Shown one piece after another: positions 24,352 to 45,754 of a stretch of DNA of 51,282 bases. The notes beneath the pieces were generated by a model. It made no database searches. It saw nothing but the letters and a program-made list of their open reading frames with translations, and was not told where the DNA came from. The position numbers and the translations under genes were made by a program. This stretch comes from a virus. The first letter of the stretch is position 1, and every line of letters begins with the position of its first letter. The stretch spans positions 1-51,282 of the IMG/VR virus record IMGVR_UViG_3300008448_009374; one strand, 5' to 3'.

Positions 24352-24898
24352 GATTCCTGAAAGTTCTCATTACGTAGATAATAAAAAGTTTCTTGCAGCG
24401 CTCATTGAATATAAACAAAGCATAGATGATGCGAAAGCTAAAGGTGAGGAACAACCCAGAGTACCTCATTATATAGGTGAATGCTTTATTAAAATTGCTA
24501 CACATCTATCATATAAATCTAATTTTATTAATTATACTTTCAGAGACGATATGGTTTCGGATGGTATTGAAAATTGCTTGACCGCAGCTGCAAAATTTGA
24601 TCCAACTAAATCATCTAATCCGTTTGCATATTATACTCAAATTATTTACTTTGCTTTCATTCGAAGAATCCAAAAAGAAAAGAAGCAACAGGCAACTAAA
24701 TATAAGATTATTGAAAATTTGGATTTTGATTCTCTAATGCAAAATAGTGATGACTCAGAATCGAGTAGACAACTAATAGATTATTTGAAAACTCAATTAG
24801 ATCAAATTGACCCGGAAAAAAGAGAGACTCCGGCTCAAACCAAAGCTAGAAAGAAAAAGGCTAAAGAGGAAGAATCTAATATTGACTTACTTAACTAA
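24284..24898 (+). CDS. 55: late-transcription sigma factor gp55
   Basis: The 204-residue product fits T4 gp55 (185 residues): a FRDDMVSDGIENCLTAAAKFDPTKSSNPFAYYTQI core equivalent to sigma region 2, which binds the -10-like TATAAATA element, followed by a basic RRIQKEKKQQATKYK segment. The N-terminal 68 bases overlap the preceding gene in another frame, but TTAGGAGAAG upstream of this ATG is a strong ribosome site. Four exact TATAAATA elements in the window are its likely targets. The C-terminal tail is Lys-rich. Confidence 0.9.
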   Translation: MKKKDTTILLPEELEELQEPSTKIPESSHYVDNKKFLAALIEYKQSIDDAKAKGEEQPRVPHYIGECFIKIATHLSYKSNFINYTFRDDMVSDGIENCLTAAAKFDPTKSSNPFAYYTQIIYFAFIRRIQKEKKQQATKYKIIENLDFDSLMQNSDDSESSRQLIDYLKTQLDQIDPEKRETPAQTKARKKKAKEEESNIDLLN

Positions 24899-24910
24899 AT
24901 ACATTATAAT
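24882..24910 (+). promoter_or_regulatory. sigma70-type promoter before mazG
   Basis: TTGACT (24882-24887) and TATAAT (24905-24910) are separated by 17 bases and overlap the end of gene 55. Such promoters are used by unmodified host polymerase, so region 24916-33465 is probably early. The predicted start of RNA falls at about 24917, almost on the mazG ATG. Confidence 0.75.
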
Positions 24911-24915
24911 ATATT

Positions 24916-25188
24916 ATGGAAACTAAAGAAGAAGAAATTATGCTCATTCTACAAGAAGAATGCGCAGAAGTAACTCAAGCAATTTCAAAATGTTTTCGCT
25001 TTGGTGTTGATAATTTTAAGCCAGGTAAACCGAAAACAAACAGGGAACATCTGGCTGAAGAATTGGGTGATCTACAAGCAATGATTGATTTGTGTATTAA
25101 ATTTAATATTGTCGGCAGTGAACAGATCAGTATTGCAGCTGATAATAAAATTGCCAAACTTAAAAAATGGTCTAGTATATATGAATAA
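24916..25188 (+). CDS. mazG: MazG-like nucleotide pyrophosphohydrolase
   Basis: This 90-residue protein has the all-alpha pyrophosphatase motifs EECAE (metal-binding ExxE type, residues 14-18) and EELGD further on. MazG-like enzymes hydrolyse NTPs or dNTPs or the alarmone ppGpp in some reports, and are common in marine T4-like phages. The ATG lies at the predicted transcription start, so the message may be leaderless; an in-frame ATG at 24940 is an alternative. Its last 8 bases overlap the queE start. Confidence 0.8.
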   Translation: METKEEEIMLILQEECAEVTQAISKCFRFGVDNFKPGKPKTNREHLAEELGDLQAMIDLCIKFNIVGSEQISIAADNKIAKLKKWSSIYE

Positions 25189-26029
25189 ACTTAAGATATC
25201 AGAATTATTTTATAGCATTCAGGGTGAAGGACGTTATATGGGCGTCCCTTCTGTCTTTTTAAGAACCTTTGGTTGTAATTTTACTTGTGGTGGCTTTGGC
25301 ATGCCTAAGGGAGAACAAAGTAATGAACGATTTAAAATTGACGCAGAGTCTTTTAAAAGTTATAACGACTTGCCTTTGGTTCATACTGGATGTGATTCTT
25401 ATGCTTCTTGGGATGTTCGTTTTAAGCATCTCAGTCCTGTGTTATCTGTTGACGCTATTGCCGACGCTATCGTGGATACGTTACCGTACAAGGAATGGAA
25501 AGACGAACATCTGGTAATTACTGGAGGTGAACCTTTATTGGGATGGCAACGAGCTTATCCTGAATTATTAGAGCATTCTAAAATGCAATCTCTAAACGAA
25601 TTGACTTTTGAGACAAACGGTACACAAAACATATCAGAAGAATTTAGTACATATCTATTTGAAGAATGGACCAGATTTGGTAGGGAATACTTTAAATTAA
25701 CATTTTCAGTATCTCCTAAATTATCTGTTTCGGGTGAATCTTGGGATGAAGCTATTAAGCCAGATGTTGTTATGCAATATAATTCTTTAGGTTATACTTA
25801 TTTAAAGTTTGTAGTAGCAACAGAAGAAGATGCTCTAGAGGCAGAGGAGGCAGTAAATGCTTATCGTAAAGCGGGGTTTGGTGGTCCTGTTTATCTTATG
25901 CCTCTCGGTGGCACTGAGCAGTTGTACTCTCTTAATAATAGATCGGTTGCGGAATTGGCAATGAGAAAGGGTTGGAGGTATTCGGACAGACTCCAGATAC
26001 CATTATTTAAAAATGCTTGGGGAACCTAA
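25181..26029 (+). CDS. queE: 7-carboxy-7-deazaguanine synthase QueE (radical SAM)
   Basis: The start at 25181 gives MNKLKISELFYSIQGEGRYMG; a longer frame from 25085 is rejected because it runs through mazG. The 282-residue enzyme should convert CPH4 to 7-carboxy-7-deazaguanine (CDG). YSIQGEGRYMGVPSVFLR and TFGCNFTC are the family start; TGGEP (114-118) binds SAM. The cluster cysteines are unusual: C32 and C36 are as expected, but no third Cys follows within two or three residues. The next candidate is C71 in HTGCDSYASWD, after a 34-residue insert. It overlaps mazG by 8 bases and the next ORF by one. Confidence 0.9.
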   Translation: MNKLKISELFYSIQGEGRYMGVPSVFLRTFGCNFTCGGFGMPKGEQSNERFKIDAESFKSYNDLPLVHTGCDSYASWDVRFKHLSPVLSVDAIADAIVDTLPYKEWKDEHLVITGGEPLLGWQRAYPELLEHSKMQSLNELTFETNGTQNISEEFSTYLFEEWTRFGREYFKLTFSVSPKLSVSGESWDEAIKPDVVMQYNSLGYTYLKFVVATEEDALEAEEAVNAYRKAGFGGPVYLMPLGGTEQLYSLNNRSVAELAMRKGWRYSDRLQIPLFKNAWGT

Positions 26030-26235
26030 TGAATAAATTGGCATGGGACATTGAAAAGATGGGGCATGAAATGAGATCGCCCTATAATGATGGATTTACC
26101 ACATTTGAAATTAAAAAGAAATTATATGAAATTAAATGGGCAGTTCTAAAACAATTAGACAACTCGCCTAATTATGTTGGTGAAAAAGAATGGCTTGAAG
26201 AACAGGAGACTAAAAATGGCAAAAAAGAAAATTGA
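26029..26235 (+). CDS. small hypothetical protein
   Basis: The start at 26029 overlaps the queE stop (TAATG) and follows GGGGAACC; an in-frame ATG at 26017 lacks a ribosome site. The 68-residue product is charged and helical, with a Trp-containing N-terminus (KLAWDIEKMGHEMRSPYND) and a Lys/Glu-rich C-terminus. No family is recognised. It overlaps the next small gene by 20 bases. Confidence 0.55.
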   Translation: MNKLAWDIEKMGHEMRSPYNDGFTTFEIKKKLYEIKWAVLKQLDNSPNYVGEKEWLEEQETKNGKKEN

Positions 26236-26392
26236 ACTATACGCAGAAGCACCTTATAAACAAGGTTACGATTCTGCAAAAGCAAATGAAACATTTTATA
26301 ATCCATATTCTGATATTGAAGATGCAGAAGCAGATGCAGAAGATTATCAGCGTGGATTTGAAAACGCACTAGAAGAAAATACTAATAAATAA
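26216..26392 (+). CDS. small acidic hypothetical protein
   Basis: The start at 26216 follows CAGGAGACTAAAA, a good ribosome site; upstream in-frame ATG 26174 has none. The 58-residue product has a basic start (AKKKIELYAEAPYKQGYDSA) and an acidic end (EDAEADAEDYQRGFENALEE). No family is recognised. It is the last of the small genes before folE. Confidence 0.55.
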   Translation: MAKKKIELYAEAPYKQGYDSAKANETFYNPYSDIEDAEADAEDYQRGFENALEENTNK

Positions 26393-26452
26393 TAATGTTA
26401 CACAAAGGTAACAAAATTCAATCATCATATCCGTGTAAGGAAGGATTCAAAA

Positions 26453-27133
26453 ATGTCATACAACAAGACAAAAACTGACCCTGAGTTGGGTAATTTGGTT
26501 CACAAACATTTGGTGAACATGGGCGTAGAAACTCCCACATTTAAAACCTCATTAGATCGCAAAGACAAAATTGCTGAGATTGAGAAAAGCTTCAGCCATA
26601 TTATGCAGGTGCTTGGTCTTGATCTTACAGATGATAGTCTTATTGAAACGCCTAAGCGTGTTGCCAAGATGTATGTTAATGAAATTTTCTGGGGACTTGA
26701 TTATGACGCATTCCCTAAATGTACAACTGTAGATAATAAAATGAAGTACAACGAAATGGTTGTAGAACGTAATGTTAATGTGCAATCAAATTGTGAGCAT
26801 CACTTTGTAATTATTGATGGTCTGGCTACAGTTGCGTATGTTCCAAAGCAAAAGGTATTGGGATTAAGTAAAATTAATCGTATTGTAGAATACTTCTCAA
26901 AGCGTCCTCAGATTCAAGAACGTCTAACAGAACAAATTTTTCACACACTACAATTTATTCTTGAGACTGATGATGTTGCGGTACTAATTGATGCACAACA
27001 CTATTGTGTTAAATCTAGAGGTGTTGAAGATACCGGTAGTTCTACAGTAACAGTTCGTCTCGGTGGAGGATTTAAAACAGATCCATCTGCTAGAAACGAA
27101 TTTTTAAGTATTGCGAGAATGAGTAAAAAATAA
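26453..27133 (+). CDS. folE: GTP cyclohydrolase I FolE
   Basis: This 226-residue enzyme converts GTP to 7,8-dihydroneopterin triphosphate, the first step toward 7-deazaguanines (and folate). The zinc ligands are C114 and H117 in NCEHHF and C185 in HYCVKSRGVED. IDGLATVAYVPK and LGLSKINRIV complete the family pattern. The size matches E. coli FolE (222). AAGGAAGG precedes the start. With queE upstream and queD downstream it points to deazaguanine rather than folate synthesis. Confidence 0.95.
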   Translation: MSYNKTKTDPELGNLVHKHLVNMGVETPTFKTSLDRKDKIAEIEKSFSHIMQVLGLDLTDDSLIETPKRVAKMYVNEIFWGLDYDAFPKCTTVDNKMKYNEMVVERNVNVQSNCEHHFVIIDGLATVAYVPKQKVLGLSKINRIVEYFSKRPQIQERLTEQIFHTLQFILETDDVAVLIDAQHYCVKSRGVEDTGSSTVTVRLGGGFKTDPSARNEFLSIARMSKK

Positions 27134-27149
27134 TTCTTGGAAAGATAAT

Positions 27150-27659
27150 ATGACAGTTAATGTAATGGTTGACTTAGAAACAATGTCAACAAGATCGAAT
27201 GCTGCAATTTGTTCTATCGGTGCAGTTAAATTTGAAGGCAAAGAAATACTTGATAAGTTTTATTGCACTATAGATATTAAGACTTGTAAAGATGCGGGAT
27301 TTCATATCTCAAAAGATACAGTCAAGTGGTGGTCAGAACAAAACAAAGAAGCATTACGAGAATTAACTCGTAATAATATTCCATTGGATGAAGCTTTAAC
27401 AAAATTTTCTGATTGGTTTGGCCCTAAGAGTTTGCCTGTCTGGGGAAACGGTGCGGTATTTGATAACACAATTTTGGCAAATGCTTACTTTAATACTAAC
27501 AGAGAACCACCCTGGAAATGCTGGGATGACCGTTGCTATAGAACAGTTAAAGCTTTATTCCATTGGGTAAAATCAGATGAAAGAGAAGGCGTATATCATA
27601 ATGCTCTAGATGATGCTGTTTATCAGACTAAACATTTAATTAAAATTTTAGGTGAGTAA
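27150..27659 (+). CDS. dexA: DEDD-type 3'-5' exonuclease, DexA-like
   Basis: The 169-residue product has the DEDD nuclease motifs: D8 and E10 in VDLETMS, an Asp in GNGAVFDNTIL and the His-Asp pair of HNALDDAVYQ. It resembles the Rv2179c/DexA type; T4 DexA is 227 residues. A role in DNA or RNA turnover is expected. A GGAAAG lies upstream. The stop overlaps the following glycosyltransferase ATG by one base, so it is co-translated with that gene. Confidence 0.8.
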   Translation: MTVNVMVDLETMSTRSNAAICSIGAVKFEGKEILDKFYCTIDIKTCKDAGFHISKDTVKWWSEQNKEALRELTRNNIPLDEALTKFSDWFGPKSLPVWGNGAVFDNTILANAYFNTNREPPWKCWDDRCYRTVKALFHWVKSDEREGVYHNALDDAVYQTKHLIKILGE

Positions 27660-29026
27660 TGAAGACATACAAGAAAAGAATTGCCTTTTGTTTAAGCGAT
27701 CAACATACTATTCCTCACGGGGGTTTAGGTCAATTTGCTAAAAGTTTTATTGAGACTTTTACGCCTCTCGGTTATAAGATAGATATTATTACTGATAAGC
27801 CAACAACCGGAGTACCCTTTAAAGAATACTTAGAAAGTCAAGGTGCAAACTTTGTTTGTAATCCTGACCCCAAATCTTATAGTGCACATACTAAAACATT
27901 TATGTTTGAGGATTCCTATAACTTTGAAAAGATGTCGGCGTTTAGAGACTCTATGATGTATGCTCTAAATACTAATCTTTATGATATTATTATATGTAAT
28001 ACCTTAGAATCATTCCCCGGTATTTACGCTTTAAATTTGCATAAGTCTATTCAAGTTATTTACTATACTCATAATGAAAGTATGGTATTTCTAGATGATA
28101 GAACATGGAAGAATGAATTTACAGAATCGTTTAATGAATTGTTCAATGCTTTAATGAAAGTTAAAGGCATTACTATTGGTACACAGACTAAAAGAAACCT
28201 TTTAGAATTGTATGGACAAAAATTGCATAATGCTAAATATCTCCCAATCCCAATGTCTGAAAAATCTTTATTAGAAGAACATCACAAAGAAAGAAGCGGT
28301 GTGCTTTGGATTGGCCGTTGGGAGCCTAGAAAAAATCCAGAAGAATTTATTCGTGTTATTAAGGAAACAAAATTGCCTGCAAAGGTAATTACCAATGTAA
28401 ATGGCGCTAGAAAATTTGAAGCAGCCTTAAAAGAAATTGATGCCGAATATGAAATTAAGATTGGCGTATATGGCAAAGAAAAGGTAGACTTTATCACATC
28501 CGCACGGGTAGCATATAACCCTGCAATTAGAGAAAGTTTTGGTCTAGCATTTTATGAATGTATGGGACAATTGCCTACAGTAGCAATAAAGGGAATGTCC
28601 TGGTTGGATAATTTTAGTAATCAAAATTATTGGTGCGAGGAAAAGAAAAACATTCCGGGATTGATACTAAAGTTATATGAGGATTTTCCTAATTCTAAAA
28701 TTTGGTATAGCAAATCTCAACTAAATACTATTGTAAAAGAACATGATGAAGGTATACAAGATTGGATTAATTGCTTTGAGTCATTTACTCCTGTAGAATC
28801 TAATTCTACTAGAGCAACAATTAATGAATATGAGCAGATTAAATATTCAGATTTTATTCAAAAGCTAAATAGAAAAGATTTGTCAATCGATGATGTCCGT
28901 TCTGTATTGACAAACAAGTGCAAATTTAATATAATATATACAGATACTAGTACATACTTATCTAAAGATAAAAATTTTATACCACAAGAAGATACTGTTA
29001 ATAGTTTAGAAAGTTTATTTTCATGA
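27659..29026 (+). CDS. GT-B (GT4-like) glycosyltransferase next to dpdA
   Basis: This 455-residue product starts with the HGGLGQFAKSFIETF glycine loop that binds the donor in GT4 enzymes. The second domain starts at VLWIGRWEPRKNPEEFIRVI and has the ESFGLAFYECMGQ motif (Glu-rich nucleotide-sugar site). The last 90 residues are an unassigned extension. It starts inside the dexA stop and overlaps dpdA by four bases (ATGA). Possible substrates are a modified base in DNA, a virion protein or host polysaccharide. The coupling to dpdA makes the first worth testing. Confidence 0.75.
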   Translation: MKTYKKRIAFCLSDQHTIPHGGLGQFAKSFIETFTPLGYKIDIITDKPTTGVPFKEYLESQGANFVCNPDPKSYSAHTKTFMFEDSYNFEKMSAFRDSMMYALNTNLYDIIICNTLESFPGIYALNLHKSIQVIYYTHNESMVFLDDRTWKNEFTESFNELFNALMKVKGITIGTQTKRNLLELYGQKLHNAKYLPIPMSEKSLLEEHHKERSGVLWIGRWEPRKNPEEFIRVIKETKLPAKVITNVNGARKFEAALKEIDAEYEIKIGVYGKEKVDFITSARVAYNPAIRESFGLAFYECMGQLPTVAIKGMSWLDNFSNQNYWCEEKKNIPGLILKLYEDFPNSKIWYSKSQLNTIVKEHDEGIQDWINCFESFTPVESNSTRATINEYEQIKYSDFIQKLNRKDLSIDDVRSVLTNKCKFNIIYTDTSTYLSKDKNFIPQEDTVNSLESLFS

Positions 29027-30312
29027 GCAAAATATTAGAATATGTTATCTCGGGTCCAGCATATTTGCGATTAGGATCTGAGCAATGTGAAGAAACAGAA
29101 ACTCTTCAGATGATTAATGATATGATTTCTAAGACTGTTCATAATAAAAACAATCATGAATTTTCTTTATTGTATAATGGATTTACAGAAAAGAACTTTG
29201 GAAAGAAGCTACAAAAGTACAGACCATCAATTAAAAATATTCATGCGGACTCTGGCGGGTTGCAGATTATTACTCGAGGTCTACAAAATACTCCAGAAAC
29301 TCGTAATAAGGTTTATGAGAATCAAGCAACATACGCAGACATTGGAATGGCATTTGATGAGATTCCTGTAAAGTCTACATCTGCAAGTGGAGTATCAGCA
29401 AAGATTGATACTAAGCGCAGATATGTTGACATGGAAAATTTTGAAACATACGCAAGACAAACAGGTAAGAATGTACGAGATCAAATTCAAAAGTTTGATT
29501 CTATGAAAAGTAAGTGTCGCCCTTTTATTATTCTGCAAGGTTCCGGTGCGGATACCTATAAACTGTGGGCAGAATATTTACTAGATGAGGTTCCAAAAGA
29601 ATTGCATAGTCGTATTGGTGGTGTTGCTATGGGATCAGCTGCTCTTGGTATGGGTCCACTTGAAGATGTTAAACGAGCATTTTATGTTAATGCTGTTCCC
29701 TTTGATAGACCATTTCATTTGCACGTATTGGGAGTAGGTGCACTAAAGCGCATTTTGCCTTATTTGTTATTTAGCCAAACTGGTCTATATGACGGCATTG
29801 ATATTTCATATGACTCTACTACACATTCTATGTCTTTAGATAATGGATTGTTTTATTTCTCGCACAGTAAGAAAAGTACACCTGCAGACTACGGCGGATC
29901 ATCGGTTAAGATGGGTAGACCATTTTCAAATATCTATAGAACAGTAACAACTGAAATTAATAATGTCTGCGACACTGATTATACTCCAGAACAATTTCAT
30001 AAGTTAATGAATATTAGTGTTGGAGAATATATAGAAAAGGGCGGCAATTTTAAAGACATTATGGAAGCACGCCTTAGTTTCATTTTAACTAATGTACATA
30101 ATTTTACAAGAGATGTTTCTACATTAATGAATTCCAAAGAAGAATTTTTGCGATTCTGTAGAGAAAAAAATTGTGAAAACGAATATGCTACATTATTCGA
30201 TGTAAAAAATACTGATGACTTTTTATACTGGGAAAAACACGTTGGCAAGTTTATGGACTCTGAACCTGTTAACGCTGTAGCTCCTTCTTCACTTGAGGAC
30301 TTATTCGCATGA
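29023..30312 (+). CDS. dpdA: TGT-like 7-deazaguanine DNA transglycosylase (DpdA-like)
   Basis: The 429-residue product has the queuine/TGT fold motifs: HADSGGLQII (75-84; TGT equivalent DSGGF/Y), GGVAMGSAALGMG (199-211), HVLGVGALKRILP (234-246) and YDGIDISYDSTTHS (256-269), in which D264 aligns with the nucleophilic Asp of tRNA-guanine transglycosylase. The expected zinc loop CxCxxC is reduced to a single Cys (NNVCDTDYTPEQFH). DpdA enzymes exchange guanine for a 7-deazaguanine in DNA. Presence of folE, queE and queD in the same operon supports DNA modification. A tRNA-specific enzyme is less likely but not excluded. It overlaps both neighbours by four bases. Confidence 0.85.
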   Translation: MSKILEYVISGPAYLRLGSEQCEETETLQMINDMISKTVHNKNNHEFSLLYNGFTEKNFGKKLQKYRPSIKNIHADSGGLQIITRGLQNTPETRNKVYENQATYADIGMAFDEIPVKSTSASGVSAKIDTKRRYVDMENFETYARQTGKNVRDQIQKFDSMKSKCRPFIILQGSGADTYKLWAEYLLDEVPKELHSRIGGVAMGSAALGMGPLEDVKRAFYVNAVPFDRPFHLHVLGVGALKRILPYLLFSQTGLYDGIDISYDSTTHSMSLDNGLFYFSHSKKSTPADYGGSSVKMGRPFSNIYRTVTTEINNVCDTDYTPEQFHKLMNISVGEYIEKGGNFKDIMEARLSFILTNVHNFTRDVSTLMNSKEEFLRFCREKNCENEYATLFDVKNTDDFLYWEKHVGKFMDSEPVNAVAPSSLEDLFA

Positions 30313-30773
30313 CAACAATAAACGCAGACGCAGGAACTTTTAAAATTGTAGACTCCCTTATGAACAAAATTGGATATCGCACTACCAAAAACAGAAGTTT
30401 TATTTGGGTAACTTTTCGGAAAGAAGGTATTCACAAATATCCTGCAGCAGCAACTGATCCTAAATTAGCTACTGGAGATTGGTTGGATGTTTCTTTCTTA
30501 GGAACACCTCATAGACATATTTTTCATTTTAGAGTAGAGATGGAAGTATTTCATGATGATAGAGATGTTGAATTTATCCAAGCTAAACGTATTATGGAGC
30601 GTTGGTATTCTGATGGCACAATACAATTGGATTACAAATCATGTGAAATGATGGCAAAGGATTTATATGATAAACTTATTGCAACTTGGCCTGATAGAGA
30701 TTATATTATTGAAGTATCAGAAGATGGCGAGAACGGATGCAGAATGTATTTTGAAGGAGTAAAAAATGTCTAA
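30309..30773 (+). CDS. T-fold (QueD/PTPS-like) protein adjacent to dpdA
   Basis: The 154-residue product has a distant QueD-like layout: GTPHRHIFHFRVEMEVFHDD (65-84) in the place of the HGHNY strand, then TIQLDYKSCEMMAKDLYDKL (104-123) as the helix with the T-x-E-like position, and IIEVSEDGENGC at the end. It lacks the usual Cys of QueD before the His pair. A pterin- or deazaguanine-processing role is inferred. A 7-carboxy-7-deazaguanine decarboxylase (DpdL) has been proposed in other phages, but whether this protein belongs there cannot be decided here. It overlaps dpdA by four bases and the next gene by eight. Confidence 0.55.
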   Translation: MTTINADAGTFKIVDSLMNKIGYRTTKNRSFIWVTFRKEGIHKYPAAATDPKLATGDWLDVSFLGTPHRHIFHFRVEMEVFHDDRDVEFIQAKRIMERWYSDGTIQLDYKSCEMMAKDLYDKLIATWPDRDYIIEVSEDGENGCRMYFEGVKNV

Positions 30774-31935
30774 GTTATATTATATGGGGTTGGAGCCCTA
30801 TGAAGGTAGATATACTTTGCAGTTACAGCAATGGAGCGAGGATGCTTTCAAACGTCGAGGTATTGATTATGAAATAATTCATGGTGAAACTCTAGATGAT
30901 TCGAAAGCAATTGTTACTGGTCAAGTATTAGATGCACATGGGCGTAGTTATTATTCTTTGACGCAAATGGCAAAGCTTGTTAAAAAAATGAAAGCAGGTG
31001 AGATTACCTGGGAAGATACTATTTTCTTTGAAGATATGTTTACTCCCGGTATGGAAGTATTGCCATATATTATGGATCAATTGCCTTGGGAATATCAACC
31101 TCGAGTATTTGTTCGTTGTTTAGCTCAAACAATTGACCCCGATGATTTCCTTCATGTATGGGATATGCAAGAATGGATGGCACACTATGAAAAGATGACC
31201 GATCACTTTGTTACAGGAGTTCTTGCTTCAAATGAAGAAATGGTTGCCCATATTAAAATTGCAGGCTGGAAGGCTCCAATTTATAATATTTCTGGATTGG
31301 CATTTGATAAAGATGAAGTCCAAAGTCGAGTGAAAGAAATTAAACCTTTTATTAATCGTAAGAAGCGAGTAGTTTTTGCTGCTAGATTTGATCAAGAAAA
31401 GCAACCAGATTTCTTTATGGACTTGATTGAACGATATGGACAAAATCACAGAGATGTAGAATTTGCTGTTCTATCAGGCGGACCATTACGTAGTAACGAC
31501 CAAAAGTATATAGATCGTGCAAGAGAATTAGAAAAGACTGCCAATTTTAAAATCTATGAAAATCTTAAAAAGAATGAATACTATTGTCTGTTAGCAGATT
31601 CTAGAGTATTGTTTAATTGTGCTTTGCAGGATTGGGTAAGTAATACTGCATCAGAGGCAGATGCGTTAGGTACAAATTGTTTGTATCCCGCGTATAGATC
31701 ATTCCCCGAAACATTTGCAAATGATGCAGAATGTTTATATATTCCTTGGTCAATGGATGATGCTTGTGAAAAATTAGATAAACTATTAGTCGCCCCTAGA
31801 AAAAGAATGGGTCAATTATCTAATTGGACAACTGGCACAATTGATAGATGTTTAGACATTATGTTTGAAGAAAATTATCATTGGCATCGTGGATCTAAGG
31901 ATTATAGAAATTATGTCTCAGAAACAAAATACTAA
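30766..31935 (+). CDS. GT-B glycosyltransferase in the dpdA operon
   Basis: This 389-residue product has a GT-B shape: the C-terminal domain begins KKRVVFAARFDQEKQPDFFMDLI and has VEFAVLSGGP and NTASEADALGTNCLYPAYRSFPE, where the Glu-Ala-containing loop is the usual nucleotide-sugar site. The N-terminal domain is less typical. It is translationally coupled to the T-fold gene (8-base overlap) and to the epimerase (23-base overlap). The acceptor is unknown; a DNA base is the speculative choice. Confidence 0.7.
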   Translation: MSKLYYMGLEPYEGRYTLQLQQWSEDAFKRRGIDYEIIHGETLDDSKAIVTGQVLDAHGRSYYSLTQMAKLVKKMKAGEITWEDTIFFEDMFTPGMEVLPYIMDQLPWEYQPRVFVRCLAQTIDPDDFLHVWDMQEWMAHYEKMTDHFVTGVLASNEEMVAHIKIAGWKAPIYNISGLAFDKDEVQSRVKEIKPFINRKKRVVFAARFDQEKQPDFFMDLIERYGQNHRDVEFAVLSGGPLRSNDQKYIDRARELEKTANFKIYENLKKNEYYCLLADSRVLFNCALQDWVSNTASEADALGTNCLYPAYRSFPETFANDAECLYIPWSMDDACEKLDKLLVAPRKRMGQLSNWTTGTIDRCLDIMFEENYHWHRGSKDYRNYVSETKY

Positions 31936-32944
31936 AACAGTAATTGTTACAGGAGCCGCCGGTTATATCGGTGGTTCTATTTGTATTGAATTAAAGAAAC
32001 AGGGATATAAAGTAATAGGTATTGATCGACGCAAATTGCCAGATCATCTAGAACAATATGTAGATCAATTTGTTTGCGAATGTTTTACGCATCCTTTTTC
32101 TTTAGAACATATTGAAAAAGAACCTATAGGAATTATACATTGTGCTGGCACTAGTTTAGTTGGTCCTAGTGTAATAAACCCTTGGGAATATTATGATAAC
32201 AATGTAAGTAAAACTTTAAAGTATTTAGATTACATTCGTAGATGGGCTCCTACAACTAAATTTATTTTTAGTAGTAGTGCGTCGGTATATGGGCAGCATT
32301 CATCAAATCATGCTATTTTTGAAAGCTCTACTACCGCACCTATTTCGCCATACGGCGAATCTAAATTAATGGTTGAACAAATATTACATTCGTTCAATAA
32401 AGCTTATAAATTAGATTACGTTTCTTTTAGATACTTCAATGCTTGCGGAGCAGTTGAAGGCGGCATCCATGGCCAAGAACCAGATGCTACTCATATATTT
32501 GCGAAACTGTTTGAAGCAGCTATATCAAATGAACCATTTACTATGTATGGTGCAGACTATAATACTAAAGATGGAACTTGTGTTCGAGACTATGTCCATG
32601 TTACCGATATTGCGAAAGCGCACATCTTTGCTATTGAGAATAATACCAAAGGGATATATAATATAGGATCATTGAAAGGTTATTCAAATCTTCAGATTTA
32701 TAAAGCAGTAGATGATTATCTAATAAAGAAAAAAAGAATTGATAAAAGTATTGTTATGCTTGTTGAAAAGGCAAGAGAAGGTGATCCTGCAATACTAATT
32801 GCAAATTCTTCAAAGTTAAAACGAGCAACTTCTTGGAAAACAGAAAAAAATCTAAACAGTATAATTGAAGATTTACATGATTGGTACTATTCAGATACAT
32901 TCAAGAAAATGCAACAGAGGTCTTCCGACGCTCATCCCTCTTAA
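31913..32944 (+). CDS. galE: UDP-sugar 4-epimerase (GalE-like)
   Basis: The start is taken at MSQKQNTKTVIVTGAAGYIG; a frame from 31865 would overlap the upstream gene more and lacks a ribosome site. The 343-residue protein is a short-chain dehydrogenase with NAD-binding GAAGYIGG, the SSSASVYGQ strand (catalytic Ser region) and the catalytic YGESK. The C-terminal part has the sugar-nucleotide pocket and ACGAVEGG as in GalE. It probably interconverts UDP-glucose/galactose or a relative and could supply the adjacent glycosyltransferases. Confidence 0.82.
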   Translation: MSQKQNTKTVIVTGAAGYIGGSICIELKKQGYKVIGIDRRKLPDHLEQYVDQFVCECFTHPFSLEHIEKEPIGIIHCAGTSLVGPSVINPWEYYDNNVSKTLKYLDYIRRWAPTTKFIFSSSASVYGQHSSNHAIFESSTTAPISPYGESKLMVEQILHSFNKAYKLDYVSFRYFNACGAVEGGIHGQEPDATHIFAKLFEAAISNEPFTMYGADYNTKDGTCVRDYVHVTDIAKAHIFAIENNTKGIYNIGSLKGYSNLQIYKAVDDYLIKKKRIDKSIVMLVEKAREGDPAILIANSSKLKRATSWKTEKNLNSIIEDLHDWYYSDTFKKMQQRSSDAHPS

Positions 32945-32985
32945 AATATTCTGCGTGTCATCAAACTTACTCGAGGAGGCAAGAG

Positions 32986-33465
32986 ATGGCAAAATATATC
33001 TCAACTAAAACTTATAAACAAATTGGACCGGTAGCATATAGACAATGGAGAGCAGACAGTCATTGTAATTTAATTCATGGTTATGCTTTATCATTTCATT
33101 TTGAATTCGAATGTGATACTTTAGATGCTCGCAATTGGTGTATGGACTTTGGTGGTCTTAAACCCTTAAAAGGACATCTAGAAGATTGGTTCGATCACAC
33201 ATTACTTGTAGCACAAGATGATCCTATGCGAGAACATCTTTTGGAACTAGGTAAACTTAAACTTGCGAAAATAACAGAGGTGGAGAAAACAGGTTGTGAA
33301 GGTATTGCTAATTTTTTGTATGAGTATGTTAACACTATCTTCTTGCCTGCATATGGCAAATCCGAAGCAGATAGAATCTGGTGTTGCAAGGTTGAAGTAC
33401 GAGAGACCGATGCGAATATGGCAATGAGGGTCGGTCATCGTGAAGACAATGAATTCGTGGATTAA
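32986..33465 (+). CDS. queD: 6-carboxy-tetrahydropterin synthase QueD
   Basis: The start at 32986 follows GAGGAGGC, a near-perfect ribosome site; an in-frame frame from 32881 would run through the epimerase. The 159-residue enzyme makes CPH4 from dihydroneopterin triphosphate. Catalytic candidates are C27 in SHCNLIHGY, the Asp-His pair in WFDHTLLV (D70, H71), E105 and E140 (VRETD). The usual HGH zinc motif is HGY here (H31, Y33). The MDFGGLK strand is conserved. It closes the deazaguanine cluster. Confidence 0.88.
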   Translation: MAKYISTKTYKQIGPVAYRQWRADSHCNLIHGYALSFHFEFECDTLDARNWCMDFGGLKPLKGHLEDWFDHTLLVAQDDPMREHLLELGKLKLAKITEVEKTGCEGIANFLYEYVNTIFLPAYGKSEADRIWCCKVEVRETDANMAMRVGHREDNEFVD

Positions 33466-33583
33466 TGAATTTTTATATTCAGTGGACTGTGGTATTAACG
33501 CAGTCCCTGTTTTAATTTGTTCTTTTATTATTGAGTTAGCATTTGTAATTTTTATGGTGGGTTCAATATGCAGTGGTTTTTAA
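33449..33583 (+). CDS. small single-span membrane protein
   Basis: A 44-codon frame starts inside the queD end and stops inside the cupin gene, filling the gap exactly (17- and 16-base overlaps). The product starts MNSWINEFLYSVDCG and then has about 20 hydrophobic residues (VLICSFIIELAFVIFMVG). The ribosome site is weak (GTGAAG). The bridging fit and the clear membrane segment support it; it has no recognised family. Confidence 0.5.
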   Translation: MNSWINEFLYSVDCGINAVPVLICSFIIELAFVIFMVGSICSGF

Positions 33584-34026
33584 AGGCTTTAGAAAAGCTA
33601 GGTAGAAAAAGAATTATCATGGACAGGGTAAACAATGAACCCTATCTTGAACGATACTATCTTTTCCTCAAAGATAGAAAACGGTTTCCGTTTAACATAT
33701 TCCTGCATAAGTTTTTAAAGGGCGATCCTGACGATGTTCATGATCATCCGTGGCCTTATGCTACCTTAATTTTGAAGGGCGGTTATTGGGAATGGATTCC
33801 GCAATTTAATGCGAAAGGAGAAAAAATTAATGAAATTGCTGCTTGGAGGAAACCTGGGCATTTTCGTACTTGTGCTGCTAATAGTTATCATCGCATTGAG
33901 TTAGATCCTAATGTAGAAACATGGACATTGTTTATGCCAGGTAAACATAAAAGAGATTGGGGCTTCTTAGTTAAGAACAAATGGATTCAAAATGAAGAAT
34001 ATTTGAAATCTAAATATCAGGGGTAA
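33568..34026 (+). CDS. cupin-domain protein
   Basis: The 152-residue product is a single-domain cupin. The first metal motif lies in HDHPWPYATLILKGGYWE (residues 58-75) and the second in SYHRIELDPNVETWTLF. An RxxxxR-rich N-terminus (RKRIIMDRVNNEPYLERYYL) precedes it. Cupins include dioxygenases and sugar epimerases; which applies here is not clear. It follows queD and the small membrane ORF and precedes gp47 after one base. Confidence 0.65.
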   Translation: MQWFLKALEKLGRKRIIMDRVNNEPYLERYYLFLKDRKRFPFNIFLHKFLKGDPDDVHDHPWPYATLILKGGYWEWIPQFNAKGEKINEIAAWRKPGHFRTCAANSYHRIELDPNVETWTLFMPGKHKRDWGFLVKNKWIQNEEYLKSKYQG

Positions 34027-36812: not shown

Positions 36813-37406
36813 ATGTCTAATAAATGGGAATTACATACACATCAAGTTAACGCATATTGTTACTATCAAAATATTTTTGATGATGATATGATTAACAGTA
36901 TTATTGAAACTGGCGATAAGCTAGAAATTGGAGATGCCTATGTAGGTGGAGATTTTCAAAAGAGCGGAATTGTTGATGAGTCTATTCGCAGAACAAAAAT
37001 TTCTTGGATACATGGTACTGCGGAAAATGCCTGGCTCTTTAGAAAATTGACTGATGTGATTCAGGCAGCAAATGAACAGTGGTTTGGATTTGATCTAACT
37101 ACGATTGAAGCATTACAATATTCTGTATATCATGAAACAGGATTTTATGACCAACACGTTGACCATCACTTTCAAGGTGCAGGGCAGTATCCTCGTAAAC
37201 TAAGTTTTACTATGCAATTAACTGATCCAAGTGAATATGAAGGTGGCGATACAAGATTAATTACTGCAAAGGATCCTTTTACTATTCCAAAAGAAAAAGG
37301 AACAATCACATTTTTTCCATCTTATACTTTGCACGATGTTACTGCAATAACTAAAGGTACTCGTAAAGCATTGGTAGGTTGGATTTTAGGACCACGCTGG
37401 AAATAA
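36813..37406 (+). CDS. 2-oxoglutarate/Fe(II)-dependent oxygenase
   Basis: The 197-residue product carries the iron triad H115 and D117 in YDQHVDHH, and H174 in SYTLHDV, with R184 (KGTRKALVGW) as the 2-oxoglutarate-binding residue. This is the prolyl-4-hydroxylase-like (PKHD-type) shape common in marine T4-like phages. Substrate unknown; a virion or host protein is the usual proposal. It follows gene 46 after eight bases with AAGGA upstream. Confidence 0.85.
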   Translation: MSNKWELHTHQVNAYCYYQNIFDDDMINSIIETGDKLEIGDAYVGGDFQKSGIVDESIRRTKISWIHGTAENAWLFRKLTDVIQAANEQWFGFDLTTIEALQYSVYHETGFYDQHVDHHFQGAGQYPRKLSFTMQLTDPSEYEGGDTRLITAKDPFTIPKEKGTITFFPSYTLHDVTAITKGTRKALVGWILGPRWK

Positions 37407-41164: not shown

Positions 41165-41998
41165 ATGCACACTAATGAAATAACTTATAATACTTTTATA
41201 CCTAGATGGTATGGTCGTTTGGGCAACAATGTTCAACAGATATCCAATGGAATTTACTTTTGTGAAAAAAATAGAATTCATTTTACTTCACCCGACCATC
41301 CATACATAAATGCTATTGATATAAATTTTGGAAATACAGAATATAAAATACGAGAGACAAGTGATAATTGGTTTTATCATTTTGAAAAACCTTATAGTGA
41401 TTTTGATGTAGATATAGAGGATTTAAATAGAAATAGGAAACGTATATGTGAACAATATATACTACCAAATTTAAAAGTAGATCATGAAAAATTAAAGGAT
41501 CCTTTGCCTTCCGATACTTTAGTTATACATATACGGAGCGGGGATCTTTATACTAGTTTTCCTAATACGCACCCACAAAATCCTTTACGATATTATTTAG
41601 AATTATATAAAATATTTGAAGAGAAAATTATTTATCTAGCAGAGGATAATAATAATCCGATAGTGCAAGTATTACAGACAAATAATTTTGACGTCAGAGT
41701 GTTGGGGGTCGATGACACTTATACCTTATTATTACGTGCACAAAATCTTGCAACCTCGGGTGCAGGGTCTTTTGCAATATCATCTGCATTTTGTTCCACA
41801 AACCTTAAAAATTTTTATTGCACAGACTTATACATAGACCATAGTTTAAATCCAATTATGCTAAAAGAGCAACTTAATGTTTTTATGGCGGATGTCTCAG
41901 GCAATAAATATTTTAGAGTAGGTGAGTGGAGCTCTGCCAGAAACAACATTAATAAAATCTTTGAGTATCAAGAAGATATATCATTTAGGAGACTATAG
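41165..41998 (+). CDS. fucosyltransferase-like glycosyltransferase (GT11/GT23-type)
   Basis: The 277-residue product starts with [19 protein letters not shown] (GRLGNN type, as in alpha-1,2-fucosyltransferases) and has the donor-binding motif VIHIRSGDL (residues 118-126). A later segment ([16 protein letters not shown]) matches the third conserved region. These motifs bind GDP-fucose in GT11/GT23-type enzymes. No ribosome site is evident. It precedes gmd by one base. The nearby GDP-sugar pathway supports a GDP-deoxysugar donor. Confidence 0.7.
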
Positions 41999-41999
41999 T

Positions 42000-43013
42000 A
42001 TGACAAACAAAGTTGCTCTTATTACGGGCATTACTGGGCAAGACGGTTCTTATCTTGCAGAACTTCTTTTATCTAAAGGCTACGAAGTACACGGTATTGT
42101 TCGTCGTAGTTCTTCTATGAACACGGGTCGGATAGACCACATCTATTCAAATCCAAATTTGCATCTTCACTATGGCGATGTTACAGATTCTCTTTCCATT
42201 ATGAATGTTTTAAAGAAACATAATCCTGCAGAAATCTATAACCTTGCAGCACAAAGCCATGTTAAAGTATCATTTGATACTCCGGAATATACAGCAATGG
42301 TTGATGGCTTAGGTACTTTAAAGATTTTAGAATCTGTTAGATTGTTAGGGTTAGAAAAAACAACTAAAATTTATCAGGCATCTACATCTGAACTATATGG
42401 ATTAGTTCAGGAAACCCCTCAAAAAGAAACCACACCATTCTATCCCCGCAGTCCGTATGGTGTTGCTAAGTTGTATGCTTATTGGATTGTTAAGAACTAT
42501 CGTGAGTCATACGGTATGTTTGCTTGTTCTGGTATTTTGTTTAATCACGAATCTCCTCGCAGGGGGTTTAACTTCGTAACTAAAAAGATAGTTAATGGTT
42601 TAGAGGCGGTTAGTGCTGGTCGTCAAGATTGCTTAACATTAGGAAATTTAACAGCGTTAAGAGATTGGGGCCATGCTAAAGATTATGTCGAAGCAATGTG
42701 GTTAATGCTCCAACAAGATAAGCCGGAAGATTTTGTTATTGCTACCGGTGAGCAATATACTGTTAAACAGTTTGTCGAACATTGCGCCCCGTATTTTGCA
42801 TTGAAAATACGTTGGGAAGGAGAAGGATTGGATGAGGTTGGTATTGATGAACATACTAAACGAATTGTTGTTCGAGTCGATCCTAAATATTTTCGTCCAG
42901 CAGAAGTTCAAACATTGTTGGGAGATTCTTCAAAGGCTAAGAGTGTGCTCGGTTGGCAACCTAAACATTCTTTTGATGACTTGGTTGAAGACATGTGCAT
43001 AAATTTTGAATAA
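42000..43013 (+). CDS. gmd: GDP-mannose 4,6-dehydratase Gmd
   Basis: The start at 42000 follows TTTAGGAGAC, a good ribosome site; an upstream in-frame start at 41922 lies in the preceding gene. The 337-residue enzyme has NADP-binding [18 protein letters not shown], the STSELYG strand with catalytic Thr/Glu, and the YGVAK motif. It makes GDP-4-keto-6-deoxymannose from GDP-mannose. The length is slightly short of E. coli Gmd (373). It starts the GDP-deoxysugar pathway of this island. Confidence 0.95.
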
Positions 43014-43014
43014 T

Positions 43015-43650
43015 ATGTTTCCTCCATCATACAAAGATTTAAATAAAGTAATTACTGAAAAATATTTAAACTATAATAATGGTTTTTATATTGAGGTAGG
43101 TGGTGCAGATGGTTATACGCAAAGCAACACTTGGCATCTTGAAATGTACAAACAATGGTCGGGTATATTAATTGAACCAAATCCTGTTGCGGCGGAACAA
43201 TGCAGAGATAGTAGACCAAATTCTTCCGTATTTAATTATGCTTTAGTTGGTAATGATTTTAAAGGCGATACTATAAAAATGTTGTATCGTACAGTATACG
43301 GCGGAGATCCTGGTTTAATGACTTCTACTGTAGATTCTCCTATTCGGCAAAATAAAGAATGGATCGCGCCTGCTACTGAAAATGATAAAACTGAAGAATT
43401 TGAAATTCAGGTAGCCACATTAACTGATATTTTAGAATCTCAAAATGTGACAGATATAGATTTCTTTTCTTTAGATGTTGAGGGATATGAACTAGAAGTG
43501 TTGAGAGGATTAGACTTGAAAAAGTTTACCCCTAAAGTTATTTTAGTCGAATGGCATTTAGATTTTGAAGAAATTAAAAAAGTACTAGATGAAACTCACG
43601 TATATGCAGAACAATTAACTAGACATGATTATGTCTTTTTGGCGAGGTAA
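43015..43650 (+). CDS. FkbM-family methyltransferase
   Basis: The start is the ATG at 43015, just after the gmd stop; a TTG at 43006 is possible. The 211-residue product has SAM-binding FYIEVGGADGYTQSNT, LIEPNPVAAEQC and DFFSLDVEGYELEVLRGL, the FkbM pattern. It likely O-methylates a sugar in the island. The next gene starts two bases after its stop. Confidence 0.88.
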   Translation: MFPPSYKDLNKVITEKYLNYNNGFYIEVGGADGYTQSNTWHLEMYKQWSGILIEPNPVAAEQCRDSRPNSSVFNYALVGNDFKGDTIKMLYRTVYGGDPGLMTSTVDSPIRQNKEWIAPATENDKTEEFEIQVATLTDILESQNVTDIDFFSLDVEGYELEVLRGLDLKKFTPKVILVEWHLDFEEIKKVLDETHVYAEQLTRHDYVFLAR

Positions 43651-43652
43651 TA

Positions 43653-44588
43653 ATGGAAAAAAATAGTAAAATTTTTGTAGCAGGACATAACGGATTAGTA
43701 GGTTCGGCAATTGTTCGGAAATTAAAAGAAGAAGGTTATACAAATCTTATTCTTAGATCAAAAAACGAATTAGATCTTCGAGATCAACGAGCAGTTAAAA
43801 ACTTCTTTAGTATTGAAATGCCCGAGTATGTATTTTTGGCTGCTGCTAAAGTTGGTGGCATCAATTGGAACTGGACAAATCCTGGTGAATTTATTTATGA
43901 TAATTTACAGATTCAAACCAATGTTATAGATTCTGCTTATAAAAACAAATGTAAAAAATTATTGTTTCTAGGTTCTGCTTGTATCTATCCGAAGGTTACT
44001 CCTCAACCGATTAAAGAAGAATATCTTCTTACTGCTCCATTGGAACCTACAAATGAAGGATATGCTTTAGCAAAAATTACTGGTCTAAGAATGTGCGAAT
44101 ACTATAGACGTCAGTATGGGTTCAATGCTATTAGTTGTATGCCTGCAAACCTATATGGACCGAATGATAATTTTATTCCCGAACATGGACACGTTATTCC
44201 GGGTATCATTACTAAGATGCATAATGCTACGATTAATGGCGAAGATAGTATTGAATGTTGGGGCGATGGCACACCTACACGAGAATTTTTATATGTAGAT
44301 GATTTAGCAGACGCTTGTTTTTGGCTGATGCAAAATTATGACGAAAAAGAATTTGTAAATGTCGGAAGCGATGAAGAACTTACAATTAAAGATTTAGTAA
44401 ATCGACTTAAAAAAGAATTTGGGTTTAAAGGTAAAGTTGTCTGGAACACTGATAAACCAAACGGAACACCTAGACGCAAAATGGATAACACAAAACTAAA
44501 AGAATTAGGTTGGTCTGCAAAGGTTAGTTTTGATGATGGATTGAAACGCACTATGGATTGGTATAAAAAAGAAAAGGGGTTGTTATGA
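43653..44588 (+). CDS. GDP-L-fucose synthase or GDP-colitose synthase (Fcl/ColC-like)
   Basis: The 311-residue product has NADP-binding GHNGLVGSAIVRKL, LAAAKVGGI, GSACIYP (catalytic Ser and Cys), YALAK (Tyr, Lys) and HGHVIPG (catalytic His), so it has the full set for epimerase-reductase action on GDP-4-keto-6-deoxymannose. Fcl and ColC are homologous and cannot be told apart by eye. A ColD-like enzyme lies directly downstream, so the product may be GDP-fucose, GDP-colitose or both. It overlaps the next gene by four bases. Confidence 0.9.
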   Translation: MEKNSKIFVAGHNGLVGSAIVRKLKEEGYTNLILRSKNELDLRDQRAVKNFFSIEMPEYVFLAAAKVGGINWNWTNPGEFIYDNLQIQTNVIDSAYKNKCKKLLFLGSACIYPKVTPQPIKEEYLLTAPLEPTNEGYALAKITGLRMCEYYRRQYGFNAISCMPANLYGPNDNFIPEHGHVIPGIITKMHNATINGEDSIECWGDGTPTREFLYVDDLADACFWLMQNYDEKEFVNVGSDEELTIKDLVNRLKKEFGFKGKVVWNTDKPNGTPRRKMDNTKLKELGWSAKVSFDDGLKRTMDWYKKEKGLL

Positions 44589-45754
44589 GATGGCCTTTAA
44601 TGGGTGAGACAATCACCTTCGCAGATAGATTAAAAATGGCGCACTTTGCGCTAACCGCAAAGAAATTTACCTTCGGCGAAAAGGTAAAACAATTTGAGAA
44701 TGAATGGAGTGAATGGCTTGGCGCTAAACATTCTTTATACGTTTCGTCAGGAAGCACTGCAAACTTCTTATTGGTTGCTGCAGTTATGGAATTGTATGGA
44801 TTAAAACGAGGCGACAAAGTATTGTTGCCCGCTTGCACTTGGATGACTAATGTTGCTCCTATTATGCAGCTAGGACTTGAGCCAGTATTCTGTGATATTA
44901 ATCTAGATAATTTTAGTTTTGATCTAGAAGATGCTCATAAAATATCAAAGAAACATGATATTAAAATGGTCTTTATTACTCACTTGCTAGGATTTTCTGC
45001 AGACAATGAAGGTTTAAAAAGACTCTTCCCGAATGCTTTATTCATAGATGATGTATGCGAATCTCACGGATGCACGGGTTCGGATGGTATTAAACGAGGA
45101 GCAGACAGCTTAGGTGGAACCTTTAGTTTTTATTTTGGTCACCATATGTCTACAGTAGAAGGCGGAATGATTTCTACAAATAATACTGATCTATATGATT
45201 TGATGAAAATTAAACGCAGTCATGGTATGGCAAGAGAGTCTATTCGGTATGATGACTATGCACAACTATACCCGGATATAGATAAACAATTCTTGTTTGT
45301 TACCGATGGATATAATTTTAGAAATCATGAGATTTGTGCTGTACTTGGTATATCTCAATTGAAGAGATTAGATAGTATGATTGAGATTAGAAATAGAAAT
45401 CATTACTTATTTACTAAGATTATAGACAAATATCCTAATCTGTTTTATAATATTAAAAATGCACACACGAACAGTAGCTTTTGTTTGCCCTTTATTTGTA
45501 AGTCCAGAGAAGTTATGCTTGCAATGAAAACAGTATTTAAAGATGGTGGAATTGAATATAGACCAGTTGTTGCTGGCAATCTATTATCGCAACCTTTCCT
45601 TAAAGACTATAAAATAGAAACAAGTAAGAAACAGACGAATGCAGACTTAGTGAATTCTCAAGGTGTGTATATAGGCAACAACCATTTTGTAACCGAACAG
45701 GATATGGAATATTTAGAAAAAGTAGTGGAGGATATTAATGAAATCTTTAGGTGA
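44585..45754 (+). CDS. ColD/RfbH-like PLP dehydratase of the DegT family
   Basis: The 389-residue product is a DegT/StrS-fold enzyme: SSGSTANFLL (cofactor site), DDVCESHG (D156, pyridine-N ligand), SFYFGHHMSTVEGG (181-194). In ordinary DegT aminotransferases a Lys forms the internal aldimine at the position occupied here by H186. That substitution is the hallmark of 3-dehydratases such as ColD (GDP-4-keto-6-deoxymannose 3-dehydratase) and RfbH. With gmd and the Fcl/ColC-like gene this gives a colitose-type route. GGGGTTGTT precedes the start and it overlaps its neighbours. Confidence 0.85.
   Translation: MRWPLMGETITFADRLKMAHFALTAKKFTFGEKVKQFENEWSEWLGAKHSLYVSSGSTANFLLVAAVMELYGLKRGDKVLLPACTWMTNVAPIMQLGLEPVFCDINLDNFSFDLEDAHKISKKHDIKMVFITHLLGFSADNEGLKRLFPNALFIDDVCESHGCTGSDGIKRGADSLGGTFSFYFGHHMSTVEGGMISTNNTDLYDLMKIKRSHGMARESIRYDDYAQLYPDIDKQFLFVTDGYNFRNHEICAVLGISQLKRLDSMIEIRNRNHYLFTKIIDKYPNLFYNIKNAHTNSSFCLPFICKSREVMLAMKTVFKDGGIEYRPVVAGNLLSQPFLKDYKIETSKKQTNADLVNSQGVYIGNNHFVTEQDMEYLEKVVEDINEIFR

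Follow-up and report, generated by a model that had tools for sequence, protein, structure and literature searches.

The 51,282-base IMG/VR record IMGVR_UViG_3300008448_009374, which was analysed over its whole length and is called the window below, is a freshwater phage fragment with T4-like gene content, and it shares 63% identity in the major capsid protein with Methylophilales phage Melnitz. Its plus strand carries one run of genes in which those for FolE, QueE, QueD and a DpdA2-type transglycosylase are all in frame, together with genes for two putative glycosyltransferases (GT1 and GT2), a GalE-type epimerase and a small protein named u154 (Table 1). A first-pass annotation of this DNA had proposed that the phage modifies its DNA with a 7-deazaguanine, which is well supported by the sequence because the transglycosylase belongs with DpdA2. 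That annotation treated the operon as an ordinary member of its class, and left out the glycosyltransferases, GalE, u154, the lack of a QueC match and the clamp-type C-terminal tails of two of the enzymes. Taken together, these features lead us to propose a further-modified, probably glycosylated, deazaguanine. A deazaguanine in the phage DNA is considered very likely, and the operon is held, with moderate confidence, to make a hypermodified, most likely glycosylated, form of it.

The transglycosylase-like protein contains, as first described, the segment HADSGGLQ and the aspartate D264. The comparison with DpdA subfamilies and tRNA-guanine transglycosylases (TGT) placed it with DpdA2 and not with the tRNA-type enzymes, on the basis of its homology to a KVP40 protein and of the absence of a Pfam match. 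Residues 4-274 were aligned by tblastn with KVP40 (3e-48, 36% identity), where the gene KVP40.0122 has been named DpdA2 (PMC8056088), and the match to phrog_10773 covers residues 4-419; KVP40 is also among the phage records with homologues counted in Table 1. In an alignment of 18 DpdA2 sequences, that of the window included, the DSGGLQ, FDEIP and YDS/FDS segments are kept and D76, D112 and D264 are invariant. When the DpdA2 profile was compared with E. coli TGT using hhalign (probability 94.4, E 8.5e-8; negative control E. coli QueA, probability 0.3), these three residues paired with the DSGG, FDE and catalytic-Asp segments, the partner of D264 being presumably the catalytic residue of the E. 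coli enzyme. The zinc site of tRNA TGT has the form CxCxxC...H; no invariant cysteine column was present in the 18 DpdA2 sequences, and no Pfam model, that of TGT included, matched the window protein at E<=1. The AlphaFold model is weak (predicted local distance difference test score, pLDDT, 62.8), and therefore its top Foldseek match among 350,542 PDB chains, the DNA preQ0 insertase DpdA (7ui4, E 7e-6, TM 0.36), was considered as supporting only. Neither the DpdA2 profile nor that of u154 found a convincing relative among PDB sequences. By homology, the assignment of the protein as a DpdA2-type transglycosylase, and not a tRNA-type TGT, is well supported.

The formation of 7-carboxy-7-deazaguanine (CDG) by FolE, QueD and QueE is an established pathway (PMC6884629). 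FolE was found in the window as first annotated, the NCBIfam model being matched above its cut-off. In QueE, C32, C36, C71 and the TGG segment are invariant in 8 aligned sequences, and the window protein scores under every NCBIfam QueE cut-off. An alignment of 7 QueD sequences keeps C28, H32, D71-H72 and E106 without exception; the window protein passes the cut-off of Pfam PTPS and misses that of NCBIfam QueD. The sequence HGY stands in place of HGH in the window QueD and in several phage QueDs.

No QueC was detected with Pfam PF06508 in the window, itself a fragment, in any of 13 relatives from IMG/VR, which reach 222 kb, or in phages BUCT-ZZ01, ACP17, Phosso, PA5oct, Bakedbeans, RHph_I1_18, Ahp1, phiST and MA9V-3. 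All four positive controls (KVP40, 6E35.1a, pf16 and Ps15) were detected. Since neither the window nor the 13 relatives has a QueC match, preQ0 is probably not a product of the phage's own genes. QueF (PF14489) was not found above cut-off in 10 records, two of which had a match below it.

The protein u154 has 154 residues and is predicted with high confidence to adopt a QueD-like T-fold (AlphaFold, pLDDT 89.4). The top Foldseek matches of the model were QueD (4ntk, E 7e-5) and other 6-pyruvoyl-tetrahydropterin synthases, and VIA gave Z values of 11.0 for E. coli QueD, 11.7 for a Pyrococcus enzyme and 10.7 for dihydroneopterin aldolase, which has the same fold. The fold evidence comes from these structure matches, because hhalign gave a weak result (probability 13, E 0.002) when u154 was compared with E. 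coli QueD alone. The protein keeps H42, H68 and H70 at the QueD zinc positions, and E138. The catalytic cysteine of QueD lies within a CxxxHGH motif; u154 has no cysteine at this position, and its sole invariant cysteine, C112, is elsewhere (we assume here the usual roles of the QueD histidines and cysteine). The protein may be the decarboxylase DpdL or a relative of it; a literature search on the word DpdL gave, among the matches listed, none about the enzyme. Matches to u154 were found in 26 phage records. Searches of bacterial and archaeal genomes with the u154 patterns yielded 10 contigs only, all from metagenome bins and 8 of them with GT2.

GT2 was recognised by Pfam Glycos_transf_1 (31.6 bits, cut-off 26.4), and GT1 shows an EX7E motif, identified by eye, in RESFGLAFYE. 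With the same Pfam model the GT2-family protein of phage X1 scored 45.5 bits and those of ACP17, Phosso and PA5oct were under the cut-off; the family status of the Phosso and PA5oct proteins is based on alignment and motif, both having been seeds of the GT2 model. The presence of GalE suggests a donor of the UDP-galactose type.

Close relatives of the window DpdA2 were found in 38 IMG/VR viral loci, in which gene content and order are for the most part preserved. In 7 of these 38, the GT1 slot is occupied by an unrelated protein of 300 residues, GT-A-like by motif (by eye), which ends in SLESLF (L022:9102-10004, and also in L023, L024, L028, L030, L040 and L045) and gave no useful match in Pfam and PHROGs. 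The distantly related, cultured cyanophage BUCT-ZZ01, a Synechococcus phage with S. elongatus PCC 7942 as its host, has QueE, QueD, FolE, GT1, DpdA2, u154 and GT2 in one run (identity to the window of 41% for GT1, 38% for DpdA, 38% for u154 and 66% for GT2), and no GalE in the 25 kb examined. In ACP17 and X1, u154 and a GT2-family protein adjoin DpdA2, and both proteins are present in the Sinorhizobium phage Phosso and in PA5oct. Conversely, the DpdA2 phages with QueC (KVP40, 6E35.1a, pf16 and Ps15) have neither u154 nor glycosyltransferases at their loci, and their records contain no u154 match.

Loci were also collected around single genes: u154 (the best 80 of at least 591 viral loci), GT2 (the best 80 of 396 relatives, the 80th of which, L046, was already in an earlier set and was left out of the recount) and GT1 (60 loci). 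Full-flank subsets comprised 46 of the 80 u154 loci (at least 3.5 kb on each side), 48 of the 79 GT2 loci and 40 of the 60 GT1 loci (at least 2.5 kb on each side). GT2 was present in 67 of the 80 u154-centred loci, and FolE in 52. Among the full-flank u154 loci, the counts were 41/46 for GT2, 42/46 for Que genes and 39/46 for a gene with the DSGG motif, and GT2 was retained in 35 of 38 clusters (below 90% identity). Every full-flank GT2 locus had u154 and a TGT-like (DSGG) gene (48/48 each) and nearly all had Que genes (46/48), these 48 loci representing 18 clusters below 90% identity; Que genes accompanied GT1 in all its full-flank loci (40/40, and 16/16 clusters). A second phage group has, in 56 of its 67 loci, a different type of transglycosylase-like gene, with a product of about 534 residues; thus, the pairing of u154 with GT2 persists across a change of transglycosylase type.

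Several additional genes were observed in these neighbourhoods. One relative, of 222 kb, has a third glycosyltransferase-like gene within its operon (L032:7184-8119), a phosphoribosyltransferase-domain protein is encoded in the operon of another relative (L012:6921-7358), and in BUCT-ZZ01 queE is followed by a gene annotated as xanthine-guanine phosphoribosyltransferase. A gene resembling heptose-1-phosphate adenylyltransferase stands near u154 and GT2 in 16 of the 67 second-group loci (L104:11634-12098 among them), which hints at other sugar donors.

DpdA2 and GT1 are the only proteins of the window that end in a SLExLF-type pattern. Over the loci examined, 76 of 1112 open reading frames (at least 100 residues) end in this pattern, and all 76 encode DpdA2, GT1, the alternative protein of the GT1 slot (7) or the polymerase gp43 (3). 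Counted by unique C-termini, the tail is found in 45/48 DpdA2 and 44/51 GT1 sequences, and in none of those of GT2 (0/115), FolE (0/104), QueE (0/79), u154 (0/139) and QueD (0/64). Three DpdA2 sequences, those of pf16 and of two Vibrio phages, lack it; of the seven GT1 sequences outside the pattern, five differ only slightly from it (for instance GLESLFA and VFDDLFEFQ). Judging from the C-termini, the tail follows the polymerase of each lineage: gp43 ends in ATLEGLFG in seven relatives, and in BUCT-ZZ01 the tails are STLDDFFS for gp43, ASLDSFFD for DpdA and SLEDFFND for GT1. Where a GT1 relative has no DSGG gene nearby, its tail reads, for example, NTFEDFFEFQ or EEETNLFEGL. In T4, gp43 ends in SLDFLFG and gp55 in SLDFLYEAND, and the C-termini of gp43, gp55 and gp33 are described as clamp-binding and interchangeable (PMC2988020). 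Since DpdA2 and GT1 share their type of C-terminal peptide with the replicative polymerase, they are probably tethered to the sliding clamp and would modify DNA during copying.

The gp43 proteins of the second phage group have ends of the type TFNSLF, and QFNALF-type peptides lie close to the C-terminus of many TGT-like proteins. The peptide was found near the C-terminus in 36/50 gp43, 37/52 TGT-like, 3/51 GT2 and 1/533 other proteins (33/46, 33/47, 2/49 and 1/509 unique sequences, respectively), "TGT-like" having been widened from DSGGFQ to DSGG after 11 of 12 "other" matches proved to be DSGGYQ proteins; before widening, the counts were 26/35 for TGT-like and 12/573 for other proteins. All tail patterns were defined after the tails had been seen.

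The following series of steps is proposed. FolE, QueD and QueE would convert GTP to CDG, and u154, in place of QueC, would process CDG or an intermediate of the pathway. A sugar from a UDP-hexose supplied by GalE would be added by GT2, DpdA2 would swap guanine in DNA for the deazaguanine base, and GT1, or the unrelated GT-A-like protein in its slot, would add or extend the sugar on DNA. The tailed enzymes (DpdA2 and GT1) would act on DNA at the clamp, and the tail-less FolE, QueD, QueE, u154 and GT2 probably on soluble precursors. As GT2 is constant and GT1 exchangeable, the first sugar may come from GT2 and a later one from GT1. The gene content, the protein families, the co-occurrence of the genes and the tails are observed, and the fold of u154 is predicted; a sugar on the base, the succession of the steps, binding to the clamp and protection from restriction are what we infer. 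A sugar on the deazaguanine is judged reasonably probable. The complete scheme is favoured by a narrower measure: a replication-coupled hypermodification with a sugared CDG-derived base, a clamp-riding DpdA and DNA glycosyltransferase, u154 in the place of QueC and a core sugar from GT2, encoded by a module found widely among large phages, the T4-like phages of freshwater included.

A number of points weigh against this scheme, which is based on sequence and predicted structure. The distribution of u154 is broader than that of GT2 and is not tied to it: u154 occurs with FolE, and with neither GT2 nor a DSGG gene in 14 kb, in Bakedbeans, RHph_I1_18, D479, Ahp1, phiST and MA9V-3 (four of the six also with a QueE or QueD match), and GT2 is missing in 5 of the 46 full-flank u154 loci. 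The u154-, GT2- and GT1-centred sets share contigs and lean to the kin of the window, and the window and most of its relatives are fragments. The absence of QueC from the u154-centred loci (0/80, 0/46 with full flanks, 0/38 clusters) and full-flank GT2 loci (0/48), which favours the scheme, was counted with a model built on only four phage QueCs. Matches to PF06508 above cut-off were present in D479 and in two u154-GT2 records, G014 and G016 (partial, 17.5-24.7 bits in these two), and X1 has a partial match below cut-off; the partial matches (X1, D479, G014, G016) may be other PP-loop ATPases. Furthermore, preQ0 could be made by a host QueC. In QueD, tyrosine replaces two of the three histidines that we take to be zinc ligands in E. 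coli QueD; the view that FolE, QueE and QueD hold most of their family residues is fair overall and fails at these two positions. GT1 scores just below the Glycos_transf_1 cut-off (25.1 bits, E 1.4e-5, against 26.4), and the sugar acceptors and donors of GT1 and GT2 are only presumed. The label "TGT-like" in the second group means a DSGG motif with a weak profile match, the 534-residue type giving a probability of 9.8 and an E of 0.003 against E. coli TGT with hhalign (control 0.2 and 0.25). Concerning the tails, the T4 alpha-glucosyltransferase binds the clamp gp45, the beta-glucosyltransferase does not, and both glucosylate DNA (PMC13216743); a tail is therefore not needed for action on DNA, and the clamp-binding alpha enzyme itself has no such tail.

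The alternative that survives best, although it is unlikely, is a plain deazaguanine, in which u154 would be DpdL, the DNA would contain unglycosylated dCDG or dDG (or dPreQ0 made with a host QueC), and the glycosyltransferases would act elsewhere. It is favoured by the QueD-like T-fold of u154 and by the occurrence of u154 near Que genes in the six phages and five full-flank loci without GT2 mentioned above, and host genes may contribute to phage deazaguanine synthesis (PMC6884629). If u154 were DpdL, the product would have no C7 group for a sugar, a further point against the glycosylated base. A plain base agrees less well with the constant presence of u154 in full-flank GT2 loci, with the polymerase-type tail of most unique GT1 C-termini, and with the overlaps between genes of the operon.

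A role of GT1, GT2 and GalE in making glycans of the cell surface or the virion, with their place next to dpdA a matter of chance, is much less probable. The window does hold a second sugar cluster (41165-51006), and cyanophage glycosyltransferase clusters were read by Iyer et al. 2021 as modifiers of host polysaccharides (PMC7824862). However, GT1 and GT2 accompany Que and transglycosylase-like genes across divergent phages, and in the window the polymerase-type tail is limited to GT1 and DpdA2, with none among the proteins of the second cluster. An auxiliary pathway that boosts tRNA queuosine in the host, as preQ0-gene phages without DpdA may do (PMC6884629), is hardly credible given the DpdA2 homology, the absence of a Pfam match, the lack of invariant TGT zinc-site cysteines in the 18 sequences and the DNA-polymerase-type tail.

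The positions of the genes and other features are listed in Table 1.

Table 1. Coordinates, strand and supporting evidence for the genes and signals of the operon in the window
Feature	Position	Strand	Evidence
MazG-like nucleotide pyrophosphohydrolase, opens the run	24916..25188	+	Pfam MazG above cut-off; phrog_4856 2e-22
QueE-like radical SAM enzyme (7-carboxy-7-deazaguanine synthase)	25181..26029	+	phrog_2076 "QueE-like" 9e-53
FolE, GTP cyclohydrolase I	26453..27133	+	Pfam GTP_cyclohydroI 2e-61; NCBIfam FolE above cut-off
3'-5' exonuclease (Rv2179c-like)	27150..27659	+	Pfam 9e-47; in the operon of most listed relatives
GT1, GT-B type glycosyltransferase	27659..29026	+	Pfam Glycos_transf_1 1.4e-5, slightly under cut-off
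Sigma70-consensus promoter-like site, 12/12, inside GT1, upstream of dpdA	28907..28935	+	Consensus match only
Clamp-type tail of GT1, NSLESLFS	29000..29023	+	C-terminal motif
DpdA2, DNA-guanine transglycosylase	29023..30312	+	phrog_10773 2e-96; matches in 70 phage records
Clamp-type tail of DpdA2, SSLEDLFA	30286..30309	+	C-terminal motif
u154, T-fold protein (QueD-like fold), candidate CDG-processing enzyme	30309..30773	+	AlphaFold, Foldseek, VIA, phrog_17812
GT2, GT-B type, EPxExRYT family, adjoins u154	30766..31935	+	Pfam Glycos_transf_1 above cut-off
GalE-type UDP-sugar 4-epimerase	31913..32944	+	NCBIfam galE 4e-80, above equivalog cut-off
QueD-like protein	32986..33465	+	Pfam PTPS above cut-off; phrog_2389 "QueD-like" 1e-40
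Terminator-like hairpin	33484..33506	+	Starts 18 nt past queD

Expression of the operon as one transcript behind a sigma70 promoter, also part of the first-pass annotation, was borne out in part. Co-transcription is supported because stop and start codons of neighbouring genes overlap, and a site matching the promoter consensus at 11 of 12 positions lies at 24882-24910, 5 nt before the first ATG; promoter-like sites were not in excess of shuffled sequences (52 against 44.4, standard deviation 7.8). In the scanned region 11 terminator-like hairpins were found for 4.6 expected (standard deviation 2.6). A near-identity DNA search of the phage collection with the operon gave no match.

Other genes of the window were noted. 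The cluster at 41165-51006 includes an FkbM methyltransferase, a DegT aminotransferase, a GT10 fucosyltransferase and a GT2-family transferase (Pfam), as well as, by eye, genes resembling GDP-mannose dehydratase, GDP-fucose synthase and epimerase. A small protein encoded at 33568-34026 matched phrog_4786 ("cysteine dioxygenase"), and an apparently similar protein (by eye) occurs in 11 of the 67 second-group loci. A 2OG-Fe(II) oxygenase (36813-37406, Pfam 3e-14), encoded after gp46/47, is possibly another modifier.

A sugar-bearing 7-deazaguanine, if confirmed, would join two known disguises of phage DNA and put a sugar on a purine-type DNA base; to our knowledge, only pyrimidines are known to carry sugars among phage DNA bases. 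Glycosylated queuosine would then have a counterpart in DNA, and phage DNA with such a base would be expected to resist many restriction and CRISPR nucleases. How a DpdA and a DNA glycosyltransferase arrive at freshly copied DNA would find a simple and testable explanation in the polymerase-type tails, which would also supply a sequence rule for separating DNA-acting from precursor-acting enzymes in such operons. These predictions can be tested now in cultured phages with u154 and a GT2-family gene (BUCT-ZZ01, ACP17, X1, Phosso and PA5oct).

Known systems share parts of this arrangement. The modifications dCDG and dDG were reportedly described by Cui et al. 2023, with DpdL as the CDG decarboxylase. 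Such CDG-derived modifications of the DpdL type follow a QueC-less pathway, in this respect like the operon of the window, and we know of no glycosyltransferase in a DpdL-type system. Galactosyl- and mannosyl-queuosine are glycosylated 7-deazaguanines of tRNA, with the sugar on the cyclopentenediol of queuosine, and they differ from the proposed base in belonging to RNA rather than DNA. Among the matches listed in the literature searches, no paper described a DpdA system with glycosyltransferases or clamp binding, which does not establish its absence in print. Phage DNA with 7-deazaguanine is already known (PMC6884629), and Iyer et al. pointed out a deazaguanine system in PA5oct (PMC7824862). 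Vibrio phages nt-1, KVP40 and 6E35.1a (PMC6884629, PMC8056088, PMC12028318) likewise are T4-like and possess FolE, QueD, QueE and a homologous DpdA2. Unlike the window, KVP40 and 6E35.1a have QueC and QueF, they lack u154, GT1 and GT2 in the stretch examined, and their DpdA2 has no clamp-type tail. The T4 alpha- and beta-glucosyltransferases, which act on hydroxymethylcytosine, also glycosylate phage DNA, the alpha enzyme on the clamp gp45 (PMC13216743); they differ from the enzymes proposed here in the base that is modified and in the gp43-like tail, which is carried by the window GT1 and not by the T4 alpha-glucosyltransferase.

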